From Gemmatimonadota bacterium (GTDB lineage: Bacteria; GCA-2686955), in contig NYZA01000125.1 in assembly GCA_002686955.1 (NCBI GenBank), forward strand, positions 1-22,922: 22,922 nt of DNA, written 5' to 3'. The notes below the pieces were generated by a model that was not told the origin of the DNA, did not search any database, and saw only the letters and a program-made list of their open reading frames with translations. The position numbers and the translations under genes were made by a program. Shown one piece after another: positions 5,642-18,321 of this stretch (positions are counted from its first letter, which is position 1; every line of letters begins with the position of its first letter).

Positions 5642-7102
5642 CTATCGATGCGCCCCCGTCCCCCGGATTTCGTCCATCCCCGTCTTGTAGGCGTCGAGCT
5701 CCTCGGAGAGACGCAGGATCTTCGCGCCCAGATCGGATGCATCGATGGTCGTGACGCGGTAGTCGTCCTTCACGACCCTTCCCCCAGCCACGACGAAGCG
5801 GACCTCGCTGCCGTCGCTCGCCCAGATCAGGTTTTCGACCACATTGCTCCGCCTGGTGGGGATCAGGTTCGGGCGGGTGAGATCGACGAGCACGAGATCC
5901 GCCGCCTTGCCGGGGGCGAGGGAGCCGGCGTCGATGCGCAGCATTCGGGCCGCATCGACCGTGACCATCTCGAGCGCTTGCTGGGCCGGCAAGCAGCGGG
6001 CGTCGCGGTGCTGGGCCTTCTGGAACTGCGAGGCGAGTCGCGCCGCCGCCAGTATGTTCTGGCTATCGGCGCTTCCCGATCCATCGGTCGAGATCGCGAC
6101 ATCGATTCCGGCGTCGAGCATCTCCATCAGGGGCGGCATCCCCGAGCCTAGGATCGTATTGGCGAGGGGGTTGTGCACGATCTTGGCCCCGCTGTCCTTG
6201 AGAATCGCCAGATCGTCGGTGGTCGTATTGACCTGATGCGCGAGCACGGTTCTTTCGTCGAGGATGCCGAGCTCGCTCGCATAGCGCACCGGCGTCCGTC
6301 CGTACTCCTTCACGAACCAGTCGGTGGTGTTGGGCCCTTCCGGGCTGTGGCAATGAAATAGGCTCTCGTGCTCCCTCGCCCACGCTTTCAGGGAGCGCAA
6401 GATCTCGGGACCGTTCGAGAAGAGCTGGTCGGGGCCGGGCACGATCTCGGCACGGCTGAGCGAAGCGTGCCGTTCCGCCGCCCGATCGAGACGTTCGATC
6501 GCCCGGGTGTGCGGGATGTCGAGCAGTTTTCCGTAGTAGTTGCGGTCCTGACTGCCCACGGCGACAATGATTCGGGTTCCGGCAGTCTCGCTTGCCCGCA
6601 CCAGCTCGTCGACCCTGTACTTGCTGAAATTGCAATGGTGGGTCATCGCCGATGTGATGCCGTACGAGAGATCGTCGAGCTTCGCCTTCAGGTAGGTCAG
6701 ATAGTGCGGCGAGTCGCCCAGCTCTGCATGCAGATCCTCGCCGCGCTCTTCGAGAAAGCGGGTGAAGACGTTGACCGCGCCGTCCAGCCAGTCGGTGAGT
6801 GGGACGTCTTTCACCATGCCGATGATTGGCGACTCATGGTCGTGGCCGTGGGCCTTGACGAAGCCGGGCAGGATCACACCATCGTGCCGGACCAGGCCGC
6901 CCGGCTCGCGCGCGCAGCCCCCACCCAGCACAGCGAGCTCGCCGTGCTCCGCCAGGAGCCGTCCGCCCGTCTTCTCGTCGTATGCGCCGACCTCCAAGAT
7001 CTCATCTTCTCGATAGAGAACGAAACCGTCTTCGATCCGCGTTTCGCGACCGAGCTCGTCCGACAGAGGCAGAAGAAGGCGGGCGCGGGCGAAGCCGGTC
7101 AT
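5642..7102 (-). CDS. COG0402 amidohydrolase (SsnA/chlorohydrolase/deaminase-like)
   Basis: A 486-residue cytosolic metal-dependent hydrolase of the ATZ/TRZ-deaminase branch of the amidohydrolase superfamily. The expected metal and catalytic residues are present: HGH at 85-87, the HCHSPE box (H250, H252, E255), H289 in LAHQVNTT, the VHNPLANTILGSG loop starting at H310, and D340 in STDGSGSAD. A C-terminal beta-domain returns to GKAADLVLVDL, as is usual. Typical substrates of relatives are purines, cytosine, triazines and S-adenosylhomocysteine; the actual one here cannot be read from sequence. The ATG at 7102 overlaps the hydroxylase stop as ATGA, so translation is likely coupled to it. Pairing of an SsnA-like amidohydrolase with molybdenum hydroxylases is seen in the E. 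coli ssnA-xdhD region. A longer upstream frame inside the neighbour is spurious. Confidence 0.85.
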   Translation of the reverse strand: MTGFARARLLLPLSDELGRETRIEDGFVLYREDEILEVGAYDEKTGGRLLAEHGELAVLGGGCAREPGGLVRHDGVILPGFVKAHGHDHESPIIGMVKDVPLTDWLDGAVNVFTRFLEERGEDLHAELGDSPHYLTYLKAKLDDLSYGITSAMTHHCNFSKYRVDELVRASETAGTRIIVAVGSQDRNYYGKLLDIPHTRAIERLDRAAERHASLSRAEIVPGPDQLFSNGPEILRSLKAWAREHESLFHCHSPEGPNTTDWFVKEYGRTPVRYASELGILDERTVLAHQVNTTTDDLAILKDSGAKIVHNPLANTILGSGMPPLMEMLDAGIDVAISTDGSGSADSQNILAAARLASQFQKAQHRDARCLPAQQALEMVTVDAARMLRIDAGSLAPGKAADLVLVDLTRPNLIPTRRSNVVENLIWASDGSEVRFVVAGGRVVKDDYRVTTIDASDLGAKILRLSEELDAYKTGMDEIRGTGAHR

Positions 7103-9516
7103 TTCACCAACTCTTCGACATTCGTTCGATGATCGATCCATGCTCGACGGATCTTCTCGGGCGTCAGCGGCAGCTCGCGAAAGCGGATTCCTATCGCATT
7201 CGCGACGGCGTTGGCGATCGTGGGACCGGGGCCGTCGGTGGGAATCTCGGAAACGCTCTTTGCGCCGAAGGGACCGGCCGGCTCGAACGATCGGATCAGG
7301 ATAGTCTCGAAATGCGGCATATCGAGCGCCGTGAACTGCTTGTAGTCCCTGAAAGTGTCGTTCAGGACCCGCCCGGTGTCGTCGAAAACGAAGTGCTCGC
7401 TCAACGCGTAGCCCATCGACATTCCAGCTCCACCCTCGGTCTGTCCTTCGGCGCTCGCCGGGTGAATCGCGACGCCGCAATCGACGGCGGCGACATATTT
7501 CAGCACCCGCACGGCGCCCGTTTCGGTGTCGACCTCCACCTCGGCGAAGTCGGCCGAGAAGGGGGGGGGACATTCGAAGCTCATATGCGAGCCGTGGTCC
7601 ATGATCTGGTGCTGATCGTGCGTGTAGAAGGTCGAGAGACAGATATCGGAGAAGCTCAGCGGCGATCCCTCGGGTCTCCTCACATTCCCCTGCTCCACCC
7701 AGAGCTCGTCGGTCGAGACCGGCTCACCTCGGCTGCGCCACATCTCAGCGGCCGCCTCGATCAGTTGCCGCACCACTCCCAGGCACGACTTCTTGACCGC
7801 CATTCCAGAGATGAAGGTCGTGCTGGATGCGTAGGCGCCGGTGTCGAAGGGGGTGTGATCGGTGTCTGAGGAGTAGATCACCACCTTGTCGAGTGCCACG
7901 CAGAGTGTCTCGGCGGCGATCTGCGAGAGGATCGTGTCGGAACCGGTGCCGATGTCGGTCGCGCCTACATGCAGATTGAACGATCCGTCCTCGTTCAGCT
8001 TCACGCGGGCCGACCCCATGTCGACGCCGGGGATCCCGGAGCCGTGCATCAGGCAGCTCATGCCGATGCCGCGCTTGACCACGCCGCTCCGGTCGAGGCT
8101 CGCGCGGCGGTCCCAGCCGATCGCTTCCTGCCCGCGCTCGATGCACTCGAGTACCTCACAGGAGCGGATCTTCTGCGGCGGGCCCTCTTTGCCCTCGCCC
8201 AGTGCCTGCGCCAAGGCGTTGTCGTGCCCCGGTCCGATCACGTTCATCCGCCGGAACTCCAGCGGGTCGATGCCGAGCTTCTCGGCGAGCTCGTCCATGT
8301 GGCACTCGAGCGCCACGAAACCCTGCGGGCCGCCGTAGCCGCGGAAAGCGCCTGCTACCGGCAGGTTGGTGTAGACGGTCTTCATCAAGAAGCGATAGGC
8401 GTTGGCGCGATATAGGGGGAGCGTCTTTCCGGCGGTACAGGTCTGAACCGTCAGCGCGTGCGCCCCGTAGGCTCCCGTATTGGCGAGGACGTCTAGCTCT
8501 TGGGCGAGGATCCGCCCCTCCTTCGTCACCGCGCTTTTCCAGCGCAGGAGCTGGGGATGTCGCGTGCGCGACGAGACGATCTCTTCGGAGCGGCTGAGCA
8601 TCAAGCGGGCGGGTCGCCCCGTGCGAAGCGTGACCAGGGCCGGCAGATCTTCGAGCAGGATCTCTTGCTTGGCGCCGAAGCCGCCGCCGATCCGTGGTTT
8701 GACGACCCGAATGCGCCGCAGTGGGATCCGGAGGATCCGGGCGAGGATCCGGCGGCTGTGGAACGGGACCTGGGTCGCGACCCTGACGACGAGTCGATGG
8801 TCTTCGTCCAGCCATGTCAGTGCCACATGGGGTTCCAGGCAAGCATGATGCTGGTACGGCACCTCGTAGCTTCTCTCCAAGACAAGATCCGCCCGATCGA
8901 GCTCGGCATCGATGTCGCCGTGTGTGACGTTCATCTGCGCGGCGATATTGCGTTTCTTGTCGTAGTCGGGCAGCCCGGCGGCCTCGGGCTCGTCGTGGAT
9001 CACCGGGGCGCCGGGTTCGATCGCCCTTCGCGGATCGAATACCGGCTCGAGCAGCTCGTACTCGACATCGATCAGCTGGACCGCGCGAGCGGCCGCTCGT
9101 TCCGTCTCGGCGGCGACGCAGGCGACGCGGTCTCCCACGAAACGGACCTTGCGAGGGAAGACGAATTGATCGTAGGGGGAAGGTTCGGGGTGGCCCTGGC
9201 CAGCGGTGGTGTACGGGATCCGCGGCACGTTGCCGTGGTGGAGGATCAGCACCACTCCGGGGACCCTCTCGGCGGCACTGGTGTCGATCGACACGATGTG
9301 GGCGTGGGCGTGAGGGCTCCAGAGCAGCTTCAGATGCAGCGTTCCTTCAAGCGCGAGATCGTCGGTGTAGGTGCCCCGGCCGAGTGCGAGCTTGAGGGCG
9401 TCTACCCGACGCTCGTTCTTGCCGACCACTCTGTAGTCGTCCTGTTCCCCAACCCGATCTTCGCCCGTGTCCCAGGATTCCTCTCGCCGCTCTTGATTTC
9501 GCTCGTCGCGGCTCAC
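7099..9516 (-). CDS. molybdenum hydroxylase large (molybdopterin-binding) subunit, xanthine dehydrogenase superfamily
   Basis: This 805-residue chain binds the molybdopterin cofactor and hydroxylates a carbon next to a ring nitrogen, using water. Residues of about 28-150 form the aldehyde oxidase/xanthine dehydrogenase a/b hammerhead (YRVVGKNERRVDALKLALGR). The Mo-domain motifs are GGGFGAKQE at 277-285, AFRGYGGPQ at 390-398, DIGTGSDT at 521-528, and the catalytic Glu at 757 in GPFGAKSVSEI. In classical xanthine oxidases the third motif reads G-Q-G with a Gln near the metal; here that position is Thr. The GTG at 9516 overlaps the TGA of the Fe-S chain and is preceded by GGAGGG, so the 27-residue acidic/basic leader before the conserved region is probably real. 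It forms a complex with the FAD and [2Fe-2S] chains encoded just upstream. The substrate is unknown. Confidence 0.9.
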   Translation of the reverse strand: MSRDERNQERREESWDTGEDRVGEQDDYRVVGKNERRVDALKLALGRGTYTDDLALEGTLHLKLLWSPHAHAHIVSIDTSAAERVPGVVLILHHGNVPRIPYTTAGQGHPEPSPYDQFVFPRKVRFVGDRVACVAAETERAAARAVQLIDVEYELLEPVFDPRRAIEPGAPVIHDEPEAAGLPDYDKKRNIAAQMNVTHGDIDAELDRADLVLERSYEVPYQHHACLEPHVALTWLDEDHRLVVRVATQVPFHSRRILARILRIPLRRIRVVKPRIGGGFGAKQEILLEDLPALVTLRTGRPARLMLSRSEEIVSSRTRHPQLLRWKSAVTKEGRILAQELDVLANTGAYGAHALTVQTCTAGKTLPLYRANAYRFLMKTVYTNLPVAGAFRGYGGPQGFVALECHMDELAEKLGIDPLEFRRMNVIGPGHDNALAQALGEGKEGPPQKIRSCEVLECIERGQEAIGWDRRASLDRSGVVKRGIGMSCLMHGSGIPGVDMGSARVKLNEDGSFNLHVGATDIGTGSDTILSQIAAETLCVALDKVVIYSSDTDHTPFDTGAYASSTTFISGMAVKKSCLGVVRQLIEAAAEMWRSRGEPVSTDELWVEQGNVRRPEGSPLSFSDICLSTFYTHDQHQIMDHGSHMSFECPPPFSADFAEVEVDTETGAVRVLKYVAAVDCGVAIHPASAEGQTEGGAGMSMGYALSEHFVFDDTGRVLNDTFRDYKQFTALDMPHFETILIRSFEPAGPFGAKSVSEIPTDGPGPTIANAVANAIGIRFRELPLTPEKIRRAWIDHRTNVEELVK

Positions 9517-9980
9517 GATTCGCCCTCCATCCCGCGCGCCGCCTCGAGGACGGCGGCGACCGGCTTCACATGGCCGGTGCAGCGGCAGACGTGGCCCGCC
9601 AGATGGCGGCGGACCTCACGCTCGCTCGGGGCGGGGTTCCGATCGATCAACGCCTTAGCCGCGATCACCATGCCCGGAGTGCAGTAGCCGCACTGGATCG
9701 CGGTTCTGTCGACGAATGCCTCCTGAATCGCGTGGGGCGCCTCGAAGCTGCCGATCGACTCGATCGTCGTGATCTCGTGGCCGGCCGCCTGAGCGGCGAG
9801 CACGATGCAGCTCGGCGCTTCGCGGCCGTCGAGCATAACCGCGCAGGCACCGCAGTCCCCCGACTCGCAACCACGTTTCGTTCCAGTCAAGCCGTTCCTG
9901 CGAAGCACTTCGGTCAGGAACTCATGCGGCTCGCAATCCCACGAGACATCTCGGTCGTTTACGCGAAGCTCGATCTTCAA
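9513..9980 (-). CDS. molybdenum hydroxylase [2Fe-2S] subunit
   Basis: A 155-residue electron-transfer chain of the XdhC/CoxS type. Residues 1-75 form a plant-ferredoxin fold, with cluster ligands C38, C43 and C46 in GCESGDCGAC plus C58. Residues 76-155 carry the second cluster, with C97 and C100 in QCGYCTPGM and C132 and C134 in VCRCTGH. All eight ligands are intact and the length is typical. The start is TTG at 9980, chosen because it coincides with the first residue of the conserved domain, sits inside the TGA of the FAD gene (TTGA) and follows a strong GAGGAGGAG. It carries electrons from the Mo site to the flavin chain or an outside acceptor. Confidence 0.93.
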   Translation of the reverse strand: MKIELRVNDRDVSWDCEPHEFLTEVLRRNGLTGTKRGCESGDCGACAVMLDGREAPSCIVLAAQAAGHEITTIESIGSFEAPHAIQEAFVDRTAIQCGYCTPGMVIAAKALIDRNPAPSEREVRRHLAGHVCRCTGHVKPVAAVLEAARGMEGES

Positions 9981-10843
9981 GACAGCTCCTCCTCACCGAA
10001 GAGCACGGCCAGCGCCCGCACACCCAGAGTCGTCCCCAGATCGCGGCGGTACTCGCCGCTCGCCCAATCGTCCCCGTAGGCTTCCAGCTCGGCCGCCAGC
10101 GATGCACGGGCCTCATCTCTCCAGCCCTCCGGCCGCCGCGACAGCCAAGCGCTCGCCAGCGCTTCGGTCTTTTCGAGAAGGCGTAGAGAGTCGGCAGTTG
10201 AGCCCTGCATGTTCGCGGCCACCCTGACCCGATCGCCGCGAATCGCCACCGCGACGGTTGCCAGCGGAGCATCCACGGCGCTACGCCCCATGCGACGGAG
10301 GGCGCTCGCATCGGTCCCGTCAACGGGGATGATCACTTCCAGGAGCAGCGCGCCTTCCAAGGCGGCGCGCGCGCCGTCGCGCGTGGGATAATCGATCTCC
10401 ACTTCGCGAACCCTCTCCTCCGCTCGATCGAAGTGCGCCAGACGCAACCGTGCCCCGAGAACCGCCAGGGCTGGGGGGAGGTCTTGATCGGGGCGATCGA
10501 TCATGATCCGTCCGCCCATTGTGCTTCGATTCTGAATCGCGACATTCGCGAAGGCCAAGGCCGCTTCACGCAGGGCGGCCATTGGAGGCTCCGCCAGCCC
10601 TCGATGCTCGGCGATCCGCGCCAGCGTCGTTCCCGCGCCGATCCGCACTTCGCCTCGGTCGACCCTCAGCCGATCGATCCCGAGTCCTTGAATATCGACG
10701 ACTCGCTCCAGCGCTTCATGGCCGCGGACGTTCAGCTCGGTTCCGCCCGCGAGAATCGCGGCCTCTTCATCGGGGTGATGCAAGAGACGAAGGCACTCCT
10801 CGACGGTGGAAGGACGCTCGTAATGCTCGAGGGAGAGATACAT
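9977..10843 (-). CDS. molybdenum hydroxylase FAD-binding subunit
   Basis: A 288-residue protein of the CoxM/XdhB/YgfM type, PCMH flavin fold. FAD contacts appear as LAGGTEL at 31-37 (relatives usually LAGGTDL) and NRSTMGGRI at 105-113 (relatives usually have NxGTxGGN). The changed residues in the second motif, Ser for Gly and Arg for Asn, are somewhat unusual. A C-terminal CO_deh_flav_C-like region follows from about 190. ATG at 10843 begins exactly at the conserved N-terminus, but no good ribosome-binding site is seen upstream. It is the first gene of the four-gene hydroxylase/amidohydrolase operon, with 108 nt between it and the glycoside hydrolase stop upstream. Confidence 0.88.
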   Translation of the reverse strand: MYLSLEHYERPSTVEECLRLLHHPDEEAAILAGGTELNVRGHEALERVVDIQGLGIDRLRVDRGEVRIGAGTTLARIAEHRGLAEPPMAALREAALAFANVAIQNRSTMGGRIMIDRPDQDLPPALAVLGARLRLAHFDRAEERVREVEIDYPTRDGARAALEGALLLEVIIPVDGTDASALRRMGRSAVDAPLATVAVAIRGDRVRVAANMQGSTADSLRLLEKTEALASAWLSRRPEGWRDEARASLAAELEAYGDDWASGEYRRDLGTTLGVRALAVLFGEEELS

Positions 10844-10951
10844 TGGCGGACGGCTCGCGTGTCGGTGGGATCGGCTCGAATCGAGGGTGAGTCCCCGACA
10901 CTATACCGGCCCGCGGACCTTCCGTCCGTACAATCGCCGTCGCGACCCGGA

Positions 10952-12373
10952 TCAGTCCAGCGGCGACATCCGCCCGTTTTCCAGTGACGACCGCCACCAG
11001 CTCCGTGTGACCTCTCCGGAATGGATATCGAAGAGCATCTCGTTCGTCTCTTGCGCGAGATCGACGAGTTCGTCGTAGGGAGTGTCGGTCAGGGGATCGA
11101 CCAATCCCCAATTTCGCCAACTCTCGTCCGCACCGTGATCGTAGAAAGCATGCCACCACACGCCGACGACGAAGGGGCGGGAGGCGAATTCAGTGATCGC
11201 CCATCGGTACGACACCCCGCGCTGAGTCTGATCCGGCACACGGGGGTATGGTCTGTTGGAGTATCCAGTGTCATCACCGAGATAACTCGTCTCGGAGATG
11301 ATGATCGGCTTATCGGTGTATTGGTGTACAAGATCCATCAAACGGGGACTGCTGCCGTAGGAGTTGAACGAGAGCACGTCGCAGTATGGAGCGAGTGCCT
11401 CCACCGCCGCACCGAAGGCTCCCTGACTCAGCGACATTCGTGTGCCGAGGATCAGGTGGTCCGGATCGTACTTCTTGACTTTGGAATGCGCCACCTGACC
11501 GAAGCGATCCAGAATGCGGAAGGTGAACTCCCTAGCGTCGTCGATCTCCATGCGTAGCTCGTACACTTCGTGGAGCTCATCGAAATCGGTAATACTCCAA
11601 CCGAGTGAGTCGGCATAGATAGCGTTGAACTCCTCAGGGGCGTCGTAGACCTCCGCCATCATCGCCACCCATTGCTGCTTGCCCGGGGCATCGGAATCGA
11701 GCGCGATTATGTAGTCGGCCCAGATCTTGTGGCCCTCGTACTCGTATCGGGTCCATAGCTCATTGGCCATGTAGTAGCCAAGAAGATGTGGATCGGTGCG
11801 CACCTTCGAGATCATCCGCTCGGCCCGCAGATCGGCTGTCTCCGCCCAGTCGTCGCTCCAAACATCGGGGAAACGTTCCGAATGATATTCCTCTTCGGGT
11901 ATGAAGTGGCGGATCCCCTCATGGGCGACGAGAAATAGTGTGACGGCGTAAGGAAGCTGCATTCTCCGGTAGAGACGAGGATCGCCGTAAGTGTAGTTGT
12001 CGTTGCGAGGTCCCGATGTCGACAGATGCGCGATGCTGTTGAACGACCAGCCGAGGAGCCGCTCGCGCTGCATCTCGCCCCAGGTCCAGCGGCTGCGCCC
12101 GTAGGTAACCCTCCACGCGTCACTATTGTGCAGCTCGATCCAGCTGCTCATCACTTTGTTGACGCCTATGCCGAAGTATGCATTCCCCTCGGGCGTCCAG
12201 AACCAAGTGTGTCCTTGGTCGTCTTCGCCGATCGTGAATCGCCCGGTCACCCGGCTTTCGTCGTGAAGATCCAGAAAACCTTGATACTGATCCAAGGGAA
12301 GTGCCACGGCCGTAGCTGCGCACGCGAACATCCACGTGAGCGCCGGGAGAATCGGATGGGGGATTCGGATCAT
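10952..12373 (-). CDS. secreted clan GH-A-like glycoside hydrolase
   Basis: A 473-residue exported protein. Residues 1-25 are a signal peptide (ILPALTWMFACAATAVALP). The body looks like a TIM-barrel glycosidase: an N-terminal WFWTPEGNAYFGIGVNKV segment, an N-E pair at 204-205 in GYYMANELWT (candidate acid/base) and E361 in PIIISETSYLG (candidate nucleophile). This is the pattern of clan GH-A, somewhat resembling beta-agarase (GH50-type) openings. I cannot name the family or substrate with confidence. The frame extends to 12415, but ATG at 12373 is preceded by GAGGAC and is the first residue of the signal peptide. It stands alone between the YqeB-like gene (275-nt gap) and the hydroxylase operon (108-nt gap), on the same strand. 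Confidence 0.7.
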   Translation of the reverse strand: MIRIPHPILPALTWMFACAATAVALPLDQYQGFLDLHDESRVTGRFTIGEDDQGHTWFWTPEGNAYFGIGVNKVMSSWIELHNSDAWRVTYGRSRWTWGEMQRERLLGWSFNSIAHLSTSGPRNDNYTYGDPRLYRRMQLPYAVTLFLVAHEGIRHFIPEEEYHSERFPDVWSDDWAETADLRAERMISKVRTDPHLLGYYMANELWTRYEYEGHKIWADYIIALDSDAPGKQQWVAMMAEVYDAPEEFNAIYADSLGWSITDFDELHEVYELRMEIDDAREFTFRILDRFGQVAHSKVKKYDPDHLILGTRMSLSQGAFGAAVEALAPYCDVLSFNSYGSSPRLMDLVHQYTDKPIIISETSYLGDDTGYSNRPYPRVPDQTQRGVSYRWAITEFASRPFVVGVWWHAFYDHGADESWRNWGLVDPLTDTPYDELVDLAQETNEMLFDIHSGEVTRSWWRSSLENGRMSPLD

Positions 12374-12648
12374 CGCTCGTCCTCGATACAAGTCGCCGGG
12401 GTCCATGCAAGACAACCTGTGAACTCAGTGTGCAATCGACGTGCCAGGGGGGGCAATCCGGCGCCCGCCATGCGCAAGTGCTTGCCGGGGATACCTTTTG
12501 CATCGTCAACGACCGGCGATGATCGCTCGACCCCAGAGATCCTCGGACGCGAACTGCTCAGGATTCGATCCGGCCGGAGCCCGCGCTGTTCGAGAATCCT
12601 ACTTCTCCACTTATCCCGGGGCGCGGAGCGTCTGGATCATCTCGTTCG

Positions 12649-13467
12649 TCAATTGCAGGGGAGTGGCGACCGCTCGGGCCGGCGCGCCCCCCCGGCAAGG
12701 GCCAGCAGCGCGCCTCGTCCGATCGCCCCTGCCTTGTCGGTCCGCACTTCGAGCAAGGAGATGTCTCGCCGAGGATCGACATCTCCCACCTTGTGACCCG
12801 CGCCGACTTCGACCCCGCTGAGCTTCAACCCCCGAATCATGCCCCGCAGGCGCGATCGAAGCGCGCCTCCCTCCACCCATCCCACCACGTCGCCCGGATC
12901 GACGAAATCACCCAAGTCGAGGACCCTGCGGAAGACCCCTTCGCGAGGCGCGCGCAGGATCCTCTCCTCGCTGAAGCCGAGAACCTCCCCGGGCACGCCG
13001 CTGTGCGGCTCCGCCTCGCCGTGGGTCAATACTCGACCCAGCCTCGGTCCTCGCATCGATTCGATCACGAAATGCGCATCGCGCCCCGCAACGATCCCCG
13101 GCCCGATCGCCACGACCACGCGCGCCTCGTCGATTCGCACGGGTGGATCGATCAGCCCCCGCATCCGCGCCTCGACGAGAACATCGGGCCGCTCTCCAGC
13201 GAATGCGCACATTGCTTGGACGCACACCGCCACCCGGTTGCGAGACCAAGCGTCGAGCACCTCCCGCCGGCTCTCGCAGAGCACCCCCTCGACCCCTTCG
13301 ACGACGATCGAGCCCTTGAGGAGCGCGCTGGCGAAAGCGATGCCGTGGCGCAACGAAGTGGGCGGCGAACGATCGAGCACCACCACCCGGAAACCGGCAC
13401 GATGCAGCGTGTCGGCCACCGCGGATCCCATCTCGCCGCCGCCCCGGATCAAGACCGTTTCAGACAC
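12649..13467 (-). CDS. yqeB: YqeB/EF2563-family molybdenum hydroxylase accessory protein
   Basis: A 272-residue protein beginning with a Rossmann-like strand and glycine loop (VLIRGGGEMGSAVADTLHRAGFRVVVLD) followed by PTSLRHGIAFASAL. The middle has IDEARVVVAIGPGIVAGRD and GRVLTHGEAEPHSGVPGE, and the end has HKVGDVDPR. These match the YqeB family as I know it, which co-occurs with selenium-dependent molybdenum hydroxylases and is presumed to act in maturing or inserting a modified cofactor; its biochemistry is unproven. GTG at 13467 overlaps the aminotransferase stop by 8 nt and fits the family N-terminus. An upstream ATG-like extension inside the aminotransferase gene is rejected. yqeC and mocA/ygfJ, the usual partners, are not in the window. 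Confidence 0.82.
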   Translation of the reverse strand: MSETVLIRGGGEMGSAVADTLHRAGFRVVVLDRSPPTSLRHGIAFASALLKGSIVVEGVEGVLCESRREVLDAWSRNRVAVCVQAMCAFAGERPDVLVEARMRGLIDPPVRIDEARVVVAIGPGIVAGRDAHFVIESMRGPRLGRVLTHGEAEPHSGVPGEVLGFSEERILRAPREGVFRRVLDLGDFVDPGDVVGWVEGGALRSRLRGMIRGLKLSGVEVGAGHKVGDVDPRRDISLLEVRTDKAGAIGRGALLALAGGARRPERSPLPCN

Positions 13468-14602
13468 CGGCGTCGAGGGCCCCCCGAAGTGCGCGCCCGA
13501 CCCGGGCCACCTCATCGCGTGTGATCGATGGATAGAAAGGCAGCGTGATCGTTCGCTCCCCGATCGACTCCGCCACCGGCAGCGCCCCTGCCTCGATGCC
13601 GAAATGCTCTCTGTAGTAGGTCAGAAGATGGACAGGGAGGAAGTTGACCGCGCAACCGATTCCCCGCTCTCGGAGCGCCCGAAGCGTCGGCCCGCGGCGG
13701 CTCCGATCGACCCGTATCGAGAAGATATGGAACGCGCTCTCGCAACCTCCGGGGATACGGGGAAGCTCCACTCCCTCGATCCCGTCTATCTCCTCGATGA
13801 ACCAACCCCAGGCCCGACGGCGGCGCGCCAGAGTCTCATCGATCCGCTCGAGCTGTGGCAGCAGGAGTGCCGCCTGGATCGTGTCCATGTTGTACTTCCA
13901 GCCAAGAACATCCATGTCGTAGCCGGGGCCTGCGCCCGGGCCATCGTGGCGCATGTGCGCATCCCGGGTCATCCCGTGGAGGCGCAATCGGCGCAGCAGA
14001 TCGCGCGTGCCCTCATCGTGCACCGCGATCGCGCCTCCCTCGCCCGCGCTGAGATTCTTGGTCGCGTAAAAGGAGAAACAGGCCGCGTCGGAAAGGTGCC
14101 CGGGACGCGCTCTGTCGCGGGACCCTTCCACGCAATGGGCCGCGTCTTCGATCAGAGCCAAGGAGTGACGATCCGCGATCCGCCGGAGTGAGCGCATATC
14201 GCAGAGCACCCCGTACAGGTGGACCGCGAGAATCGCGCGCGTCGTCGGGCCGACGGCCTCCTCGACGGCGCCGGGATCGATATTCCCCGTCACCGGATCG
14301 ACATCGACGAAGACCGGCGTTGCGCCAGCGTGCAGGATTGCGTTCGGCGTTGCCATGAAAGTGAGCGGTGTCGTGATCACCTCGTCGCCGGGACCGACCT
14401 CACGGGCCAGGAGCGCCAGGTGCATCGCCGCCGTGCAGCTCGTCACACCGACCACGTGGGGCACCCCCAAGTACGAGGCGAAGCGCTCCTCGAAACGCGC
14501 CGTCATCGGCCCAGTCGTGAGGAACTTCCCGCGCAGCGCCTCGCGCAAGGAATCGAGCTCCGCCTCTCCGAGCTCGTGACGAAAGAACTCGACCCCTTTC
14601 AC
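13460..14602 (-). CDS. DegT/DnrJ/EryC1/StrS-family PLP aminotransferase
   Basis: A 380-residue fold-type I aminotransferase that transfers an amino group, usually from glutamate, to a keto-sugar nucleotide. PLP residues are visible: IEDAAH with D153 for the pyridine nitrogen, SFYATKNLSAGEGG with the Schiff-base K182, and GWKYNMDTIQAAL further on, diagnostic of the family. Length is normal. GTG at 14602 overlaps the RNase D stop as GTGA, and a purine-rich AAGAAGATGG lies ahead. Its product sugar is unknown. The closest sugar-metabolism neighbour is the phosphomannomutase gene two upstream; no 4,6-dehydratase or nucleotidyltransferase is present here. Its overlap with the YqeB-like gene means the two are translated together, although no biochemical link is known. 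Confidence 0.9.
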   Translation of the reverse strand: MKGVEFFRHELGEAELDSLREALRGKFLTTGPMTARFEERFASYLGVPHVVGVTSCTAAMHLALLAREVGPGDEVITTPLTFMATPNAILHAGATPVFVDVDPVTGNIDPGAVEEAVGPTTRAILAVHLYGVLCDMRSLRRIADRHSLALIEDAAHCVEGSRDRARPGHLSDAACFSFYATKNLSAGEGGAIAVHDEGTRDLLRRLRLHGMTRDAHMRHDGPGAGPGYDMDVLGWKYNMDTIQAALLLPQLERIDETLARRRRAWGWFIEEIDGIEGVELPRIPGGCESAFHIFSIRVDRSRRGPTLRALRERGIGCAVNFLPVHLLTYYREHFGIEAGALPVAESIGERTITLPFYPSITRDEVARVGRALRGALDAGV

Positions 14603-17307: not shown

Positions 17308-18321
17308 CTAGTCTACTCCCGTCACTGCCTCCCACCCCTTGCGAAGCTCGACATGATCGAGGTCGCGGCCGATCAGAACGAGCAGCGACTCGTCGGGCGC
17401 TGCACCCATCTCCGGGCGCAGCTCCATCCACTGGTAGATGCCTTGGACGACGACGCGGGGGCCGTGGTCTCTGCAGCGCACGATCCCTTTGAGTCGCATC
17501 AGCTCCCAGGTGCGGCGCTGGCCAACGAATTGAAGCCAAATCCGCAGGCGGTGGATGTCGAGGGTGCGGCGGGTTCGGAGCGTGAGCGCCGACATGCCCG
17601 CGGTGTGGCCGTGCGGGCTGCCGTCCCGCTCCGAGGATTCTTCGGACGGGTCGGCTTCGGCAAGATCGAGCTTCCAGCGGCCCGGATCGGTGGTCTCGAG
17701 ATGGAGAACCCGGTCCGGGGGCAGCTCGGCATGCTCGGTGCGAACGATCGACGCCATGGGGTTGATGCGGCGCAGGGCCGTCTCGGCTTCGACCTGTCCG
17801 GCGTCGTCGCTTCGATCGCAGTGGTTGAGCAGGATCGTGTCGGCATAGCCGATCTGCTGGCATGCTTCGGGATGGAAGGCGAGCTGCTCTTTCACGTGGG
17901 CCGCGTGGGCGAGGGCGACGACGCCGTCGACCCGGGTGCGTTCCGAGAGCTCCGGATCGGCGAGGAAGGTCTGGACCACTGGGCCCGGAGAGGCCACGCC
18001 GCTCGCCTCGATCACGATCCGATCGAAGCGGATTCTCCTCCAGAATCTTCGGGCACGGCGCTCCAACAGCGCGGCGACCGTCTCTCGCATATCGCCGCGG
18101 ATAGTGCAGCAGATGCAGCCGTTCTGGAGCTCGATCAGGTCCTCGGAGGTGCCGACCACCAGGGACCCGTCGATCGACACGTCTCCGAATTCGTTGACCA
18201 CGATCGCGATCCGCTCGGCGTGATTCGATGCCAATAGACGATTGAGCAGCGTGGTCTTTCCGCTGCCCAAGAAGCCGGTCAGAAGTGTGATCGGAATGCG
18301 CGGCACGGCGTATGCTAGCAT
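17308..18321 (-). CDS. CobW/COG0523 G3E-family GTPase (metallochaperone-like)
   Basis: A 337-residue GTPase. The P-loop GFLGSGKTT is at 16-24, NEFG at 43-46, the metal-binding GCICCT at 68-73 (C69, C71, C72), and a SIMIBI switch-like [10 protein letters not shown] follows. The guanine-specificity motif usually reads NKxD; here it is NHCD at 166-169. A short HGH in the linker and a C-terminal CobW_C-like domain ([13 protein letters not shown]) follow. Members load Zn, Co or other metals. Which metal is served here is unknown. ATG at 18321 is divergent from ribBA with only 56 nt between start codons, so promoters overlap or lie inside the neighbouring genes. GTG at 18306 is an alternative start. 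Confidence 0.87.

Follow-up and report, generated by a model that had tools for sequence, protein, structure and literature searches.

Of all the uses of selenium, its insertion as a labile cofactor in molybdenum hydroxylases is the one that is understood least. YqeB is a maturation protein that is thought to insert the selenium, and YqeB and YqeC together have served as a genomic signature. What, then, is to be made of a YqeB gene that lies on the same strand as the genes of a three-subunit molybdenum hydroxylase and an amidohydrolase, with a glycosidase gene in between and no YqeC? The window (the whole stretch of DNA that was analyzed, 22,922 bases) is the entire contig C125 of a draft genome, G000, that is 84.5% complete. 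The genes that matter here, listed from the high-coordinate end, are these:

13460-14602, minus strand: DegT/DnrJ-type aminotransferase (PF01041)
12649-13467, minus strand: YqeB-family protein, 272 aa, with a GTG start (TIGR03309, 231.6 bits)
10952-12373, minus strand: exported beta-agarase/GH50-like glycosidase (phmmer matches to agarases)
9977-10843, minus strand: FAD-binding subunit of a Mo hydroxylase, 288 aa (PF00941, E 1e-26)
9513-9980, minus strand: [2Fe-2S] subunit, 155 aa (PF01799 and PF00111; cluster cysteines present)
7099-9516, minus strand: Mo-binding large subunit, 805 aa, XdhD/XdhA-type (PF01315, PF02738 and PF20256)
5642-7102, minus strand: TRZ/ATZ-type amidohydrolase, 486 aa (PF01979)

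The gene run and its conservation

The initial annotation had described a complete FAD/[2Fe-2S]/Mo hydroxylase on the same strand as a YqeB gene, with an exported glycosidase separating the two. All of these genes are found on the minus strand, where it had placed them, and the YqeB is a genuine one, its score lying above the TIGR03309 cut-off of 220. The genes are tightly packed: 4 bp are shared by FAD and FeS, by FeS and Mo, and by Mo and the amidohydrolase gene (as ATGA at the last of these junctions), and the GTG start of yqeB overlaps the DegT stop by 8 bp. The sole loose junction of the run is the gap between yqeB and the FAD subunit gene, which contains the glycosidase. The top NCBIfam model for the FAD subunit is TIGR03312 (Se_sel_red_FAD), with a score, 64.6 bits, that is below its cut-off. 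Elsewhere in the window, a gene for a CobW-type GTPase (a metallochaperone family) lies at 17308-18321 on the minus strand, divergent from a riboflavin-synthesis (ribBA-like) gene.

The same gene set recurs in five other genomes, which argues that the locus is not a chance assembly. One of them (G001) is of the window's phylum, the only other genome from that phylum that was compared and an incomplete draft like G000; the others are G002, G003, G008 and G009, making six operon genomes with the window's own. All five relatives, which come from two phyla, have the YqeB-FAD-FeS-Mo unit whole and uninterrupted; conservation of the YqeB and hydroxylase gene pair, for which the initial annotation had proposed a test, is thus borne out. 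The gene order in G001 is rnd, DegT, YqeB, FAD, FeS, Mo and amidohydrolase, with ~80 bp between YqeB and FAD. Scanning the named genomes with the YqeB alignment yielded as best matches two drafts named Planctomycetota, with YqeB, FAD, FeS and Mo genes contiguous, and a class-wide search around G002 added G008 and G009, again with the entire unit. An amidohydrolase of 69-76% identity is linked to the operon in G001, G002, G003 and G009; none was found on the G008 contig, which is short. (In G002, G003 and G009, other genes intervene between those for the Mo subunit and the amidohydrolase, and these appear not to be shared.) Among 12 genomes of the G002 class, four possess YqeB, and exactly those four also possess an ortholog of the hydroxylase, at 72-75% identity (37% for the next best match) and always adjacent to YqeB; the Fisher p of 0.002 for this co-occurrence is a guide only, the four sharing ancestry and kinship being uncorrected. 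In G008 (L151, 2292-3350, plus strand), a CRP/cyclic-nucleotide-binding-like gene ends directly before yqeB and is a possible regulator there.

These comparisons also deal with the two neighbors. The glycosidase has no Pfam or NCBIfam match; phmmer relates it to the beta-agarases 6xj9 and 4bq2 at E ~1e-15 (best 7.6e-16). It is absent from the yqeB/FAD junction of the five relatives that were compared, and since YqeB-FAD-FeS-Mo is contiguous in all of them, it is best read as a lineage-specific insertion; a role as a component of the system is ruled out by its presence in the window genome only. DegT adjoins yqeB in G001 as it does in the window, but has no match at the loci L054, L055, L151 and L152. 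Kept beside yqeB only in G001 and missing from that place in the other phylum, it is probably a neighbor rather than a component of the system. The suggestion of a reduced or rearranged system in a poorly known lineage thus stands in two of its parts: the system is reduced, and the lineage is poorly known, with a single relative from its phylum among the genomes compared. The rearrangement dissolves into the glycosidase insertion.

We take the locus to be a conserved operon, a YqeC-free variant in which an XdhD/XdhA-branch three-subunit Mo hydroxylase goes together with a YqeB maturation factor of its own and an amidohydrolase, and we give this reading a probability of roughly 70%. Its gene content, coupling and co-occurrence, like the tree position, YqeC loss and altered residues described below, are read from the sequences; dedicated maturation by YqeB, a purine-like substrate and the order of reactions we infer. 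YqeB would act on the molybdenum cofactor or on the apo-enzyme, and the hydroxylase would receive a terminal labile chalcogen ligand, which may be selenium from selenophosphate, or sulfur. The mature enzyme would add oxygen to, or remove it from, a purine-like N-heterocycle, with electrons passing via the 2Fe-2S centers and FAD, and the amidohydrolase would deaminate or open the product.

Affinities of the hydroxylase and the amidohydrolase

In a maximum-likelihood tree built from 46 large chains, the six of the window type form one clade (support 100/100), which joins the XdhD proteins of E. coli and Serratia and a Sedimentibacter chain (support 100/99); XdhA comes next, outside this group (support 100/98). 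Outside the window type, the closest relative is the Sedimentibacter FeS/Mo hydroxylase, at 41%; its draft (L065, 116-4296) has a nucleotidyltransferase-like gene and YqeB in convergent orientation to a separate pair of FeS/Mo hydroxylase genes. Placement of the window type with classical xanthine dehydrogenase (1jro) is rejected by the AU test (p-AU 4e-63), as is a clade that would unite it with Se-dependent xanthine dehydrogenase (p-AU 0.0003). The possibility of a classical xanthine oxidase, on which the initial annotation had wanted a tree, is thereby disposed of in favor of a grouping with XdhD. The window large chain scores 332.8 bits with TIGR03311 (Se-dependent xanthine dehydrogenase; cut-off 830.45) and 612.4 bits with TIGR03313 (XdhD/Se_sel_red_Mo; cut-off 1101.9), its Fe-S and Mo chains being separate rather than fused; its best full-length model is XdhA, at 686.7 bits for a cut-off of 780.

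In the active-site alignment, the window type, XdhD and XdhA carry Gln and Tyr in the places of Glu-802 and Phe-914 of bovine XDH; Glu and Phe occupy these pocket positions in xanthine dehydrogenases, whether Se-dependent or not. Arg-880 is also absent in all three (the window chain has C at that column), and the catalytic Glu-1261 and the Gln near Mo are retained. XdhD reduces urate to 2,8-dioxopurine, and SsnA and the reductase YgfK act jointly on the product (PMC12507026); from its kinship with XdhD, the window hydroxylase probably acts on a purine-like ring substrate.

The amidohydrolase is another matter. Its metal and acid/base motifs (HxH, HxHxxE, H and D) are intact, but the SsnA-like enzyme of the initial annotation it is not: the SsnA model TIGR03314 scores 116.9 bits against a cut-off of 455.5, and against E. 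coli SsnA the protein has 23.5% identity (70 bits), no better than its 25.3% (77 bits) against the guanine deaminase GuaD. An SsnA identity is thus ruled out.

How does the operon compare with systems that are already known? The E. coli yqeB/yqeC/mocA/ygfK/ssnA/ygfM/xdhD locus specifies a reductive urate pathway (PMC12507026) and is an SDMH candidate (PMC2276186). The window resembles it in the proximity of YqeB to an amidohydrolase and a hydroxylase of the XdhD branch, in the Q/Y active site and in being its sister in the tree; it differs in its separate Fe-S and Mo genes, in lacking YqeC, MocA and YgfK, in an amidohydrolase that is not SsnA, and in a YqeB that is divergent and not fused to an XdhC/CoxI domain. 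With E. coli XdhABC it shares the Q/Y pocket and a division into three separate subunits of like type, but the gene order differs, XdhABC has no coupled amidohydrolase and XdhA lies outside the clade of the window type and XdhD. Classical XdhAB (1jro, and an example on contig C38) belongs to the same superfamily and has the catalytic Glu and Gln, but the window type falls in a different clade and lacks equivalents of Glu-802 and Arg-880. The operons of Se-dependent xanthine dehydrogenase (TIGR03311; Clostridia, Moorella, Hungatella, Treponema) likewise have a YqeB-associated Mo hydroxylase, but the window large chain is in another clade and lacks their Glu/Arg/Phe xanthine pocket.

One such Se-dependent enzyme is encoded in the window genome itself, which has five Mo hydroxylases. 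It lies on contig C66 (L022, 4439-11586, minus strand) and scores 907.5 with TIGR03311, above the cut-off of 830.45. Next come an amidohydrolase of the SsnA type (33.5% identical to SsnA of E. coli) and two PLP-dependent enzymes. Judged by sequence, the C66 enzyme is this genome's clearer candidate for a selenium hydroxylase. The window YqeB could serve this enzyme in trans, which counts against the reading of a dedicated operon. That YqeB serves mainly the C66 enzyme, its place beside an XdhD-type hydroxylase being accidental, would fit the quality of that TIGR03311 match and the company of an SsnA-type amidohydrolase, but is most improbable: in G001 the operon is present while no protein passes the cut-off for Se-dependent xanthine dehydrogenase, the other hydroxylases of the G002 class in the tree all lie outside the Se-dependent xanthine dehydrogenase clade, and the adjacency of YqeB and hydroxylase is conserved across two phyla.

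A divergent YqeB without YqeC

The YqeB of the operon belongs to the family by score and stands apart within it. With TIGR03309, five of the six window-type proteins exceed the cut-off (G002 at 241, G003 at 244, G008 at 238 and G009 at 221 bits, in addition to the window's); that of G001, at 191 bits, is under it. In an alignment of 52 sequences, the six window-type and 46 others, the six form their own clade (support 100/100). The window YqeB has G104, D107, P141 and L239 where other YqeBs have K, N, H and C. These residues are nearly fixed elsewhere (Lys in 46/46, Asn in 45/46, His in 43/46 and Cys in 40/44), and none is kept in the six: the Lys column holds G, S or A and the Cys column L. 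Such altered residues could signify a changed function of YqeB, and they point to positions that may work with YqeC or selenium. Their loss lowers the transfer of function, not family membership by score, signature residues not being a curated criterion.

YqeB and YqeC are described as having no known predicted domains (PMC11448449), and a sequence search of the window YqeB against solved structures gave nothing convincing. Its AF2 model (mean pLDDT 91.1) has a predicted Rossmann-like N-terminal part joined to a predicted barrel-sandwich-hybrid (biotinyl/lipoyl-like) domain: residues ~154-233 of the predicted structure match biotin carrier domains with Z 9.6-10.2 and rmsd 1.1-1.7 over 62-68 residues. 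The likeness is one of fold only, not of function, and the hairpin with the attachment Lys of biotinyl domains was not seen when the model was inspected by eye. A structural match to the XdhC-like 3on5 (Z 9.5) was set aside, as it is not above those to many unrelated Rossmann enzymes.

YqeC (TIGR03172) is found neither in the window genome nor in its five relatives, all searched as drafts, which bears out its reported absence. A gap in a draft is an unlikely explanation, given none in six. Of 49 other genomes with YqeB, spread over many phyla, 44 have YqeC, and the difference from 0/6 has p 1.6e-5, uncorrected for kinship; the six genomes being kin, the absence may count as one loss. (The fragmentary Sedimentibacter draft G004, L065, is YqeC-less and was omitted from the count because its isolate relative S. 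saalensis, G052, does have YqeC.) The five further YqeB genomes without a YqeC match (L059, L061, L062, L078 and L111) keep the canonical YqeB Lys. MocA/YgfJ had also been noted as missing from the locus, and a search of the window genome found only a nucleotidyltransferase-like protein, away from the cluster, at 97.2 bits for a cut-off of 186.45. No xdhC was found by tblastn of the window-type loci.

SelD, YqeB and YqeC together constitute the published signature of the selenium-cofactor trait (PMC5029168); of the three, YqeC is absent from the window type. A YqeC-free operon suggests that the pairing of YqeB with YqeC misses part of the family. In C. difficile, growth on xanthine or urate needs yqeB but not yqeC, the yqeB requirement matching the behavior of selD mutants (PMC11448449), which fits a YqeC-independent form. 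We consider it fairly probable that the window type represents a separate, YqeC-independent branch of YqeB with an XdhD-branch hydroxylase and amidohydrolase of its own, in which either YqeB alone inserts selenium or a switch from selenium to sulfur has occurred.

Selenium or sulfur

The selD gene, for which the initial annotation had proposed a search, is present over the cut-off in the window genome and in G001, G002 and G003 (four of the six operon genomes), as well as in the Sedimentibacter draft G004. YqeB has been reported solely in selD-positive genomes (PMC2276186), and G000-G004 conform. The window genome's SelD (contig C248, L001, 1489-2532, plus strand) has an in-frame TGA at the position of the active-site Cys (PAGG-U-ARK) and is probably itself a selenoprotein; with a tRNA-Sec at 76.9 bits, the organism most likely makes selenocysteine. 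Since use of selenocysteine also explains selD, the gene is not diagnostic for a selenium cofactor.

That the operon specifies a true selenium-dependent Mo hydroxylase, SelD making selenophosphate and YqeB placing labile selenium on Mo with no help from YqeC, so that the known system is merely short of a dispensable gene, has in our estimate an even chance. The presence of selD in every window-type YqeB genome examined for it (G000-G003), the restriction of YqeB to selD-positive genomes, the C. difficile genetics, and the organism's possession of a Se-dependent xanthine dehydrogenase above a curated cut-off all speak for it; the alternative account of selD, the place of YqeC in the usual signature and the altered YqeB residues speak against. 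Its main rival is a YqeB branch that has left selenium and matures a sulfur-ligated Mo hydroxylase, an XdhC-like task, the loss of YqeC and of the Lys, Cys, His and Asn residues marking the change. YqeC was indeed lost clade-wide together with otherwise fixed residues of YqeB; the cluster lacks XdhC, so that some other factor would be called for; and Se-unrelated roles for YqeB alone are allowed for (PMC5029168). This remains a tentative proposal, faced with selD in all the operon genomes examined (G000-G003) and with five of six YqeBs that exceed the cut-off of a selenium family. The conserved YqeC-free operon that we favor accommodates either chalcogen. As a pair conserved in two phyla without YqeC, it offers a natural test of the role of YqeC, and YqeB, the three subunits and SelD make up a minimal set for reconstitution. 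A second SelD match over the cut-off lies within an 823-aa open frame of G003 (C29, 48292-49209; L145), perhaps a SelD fusion.
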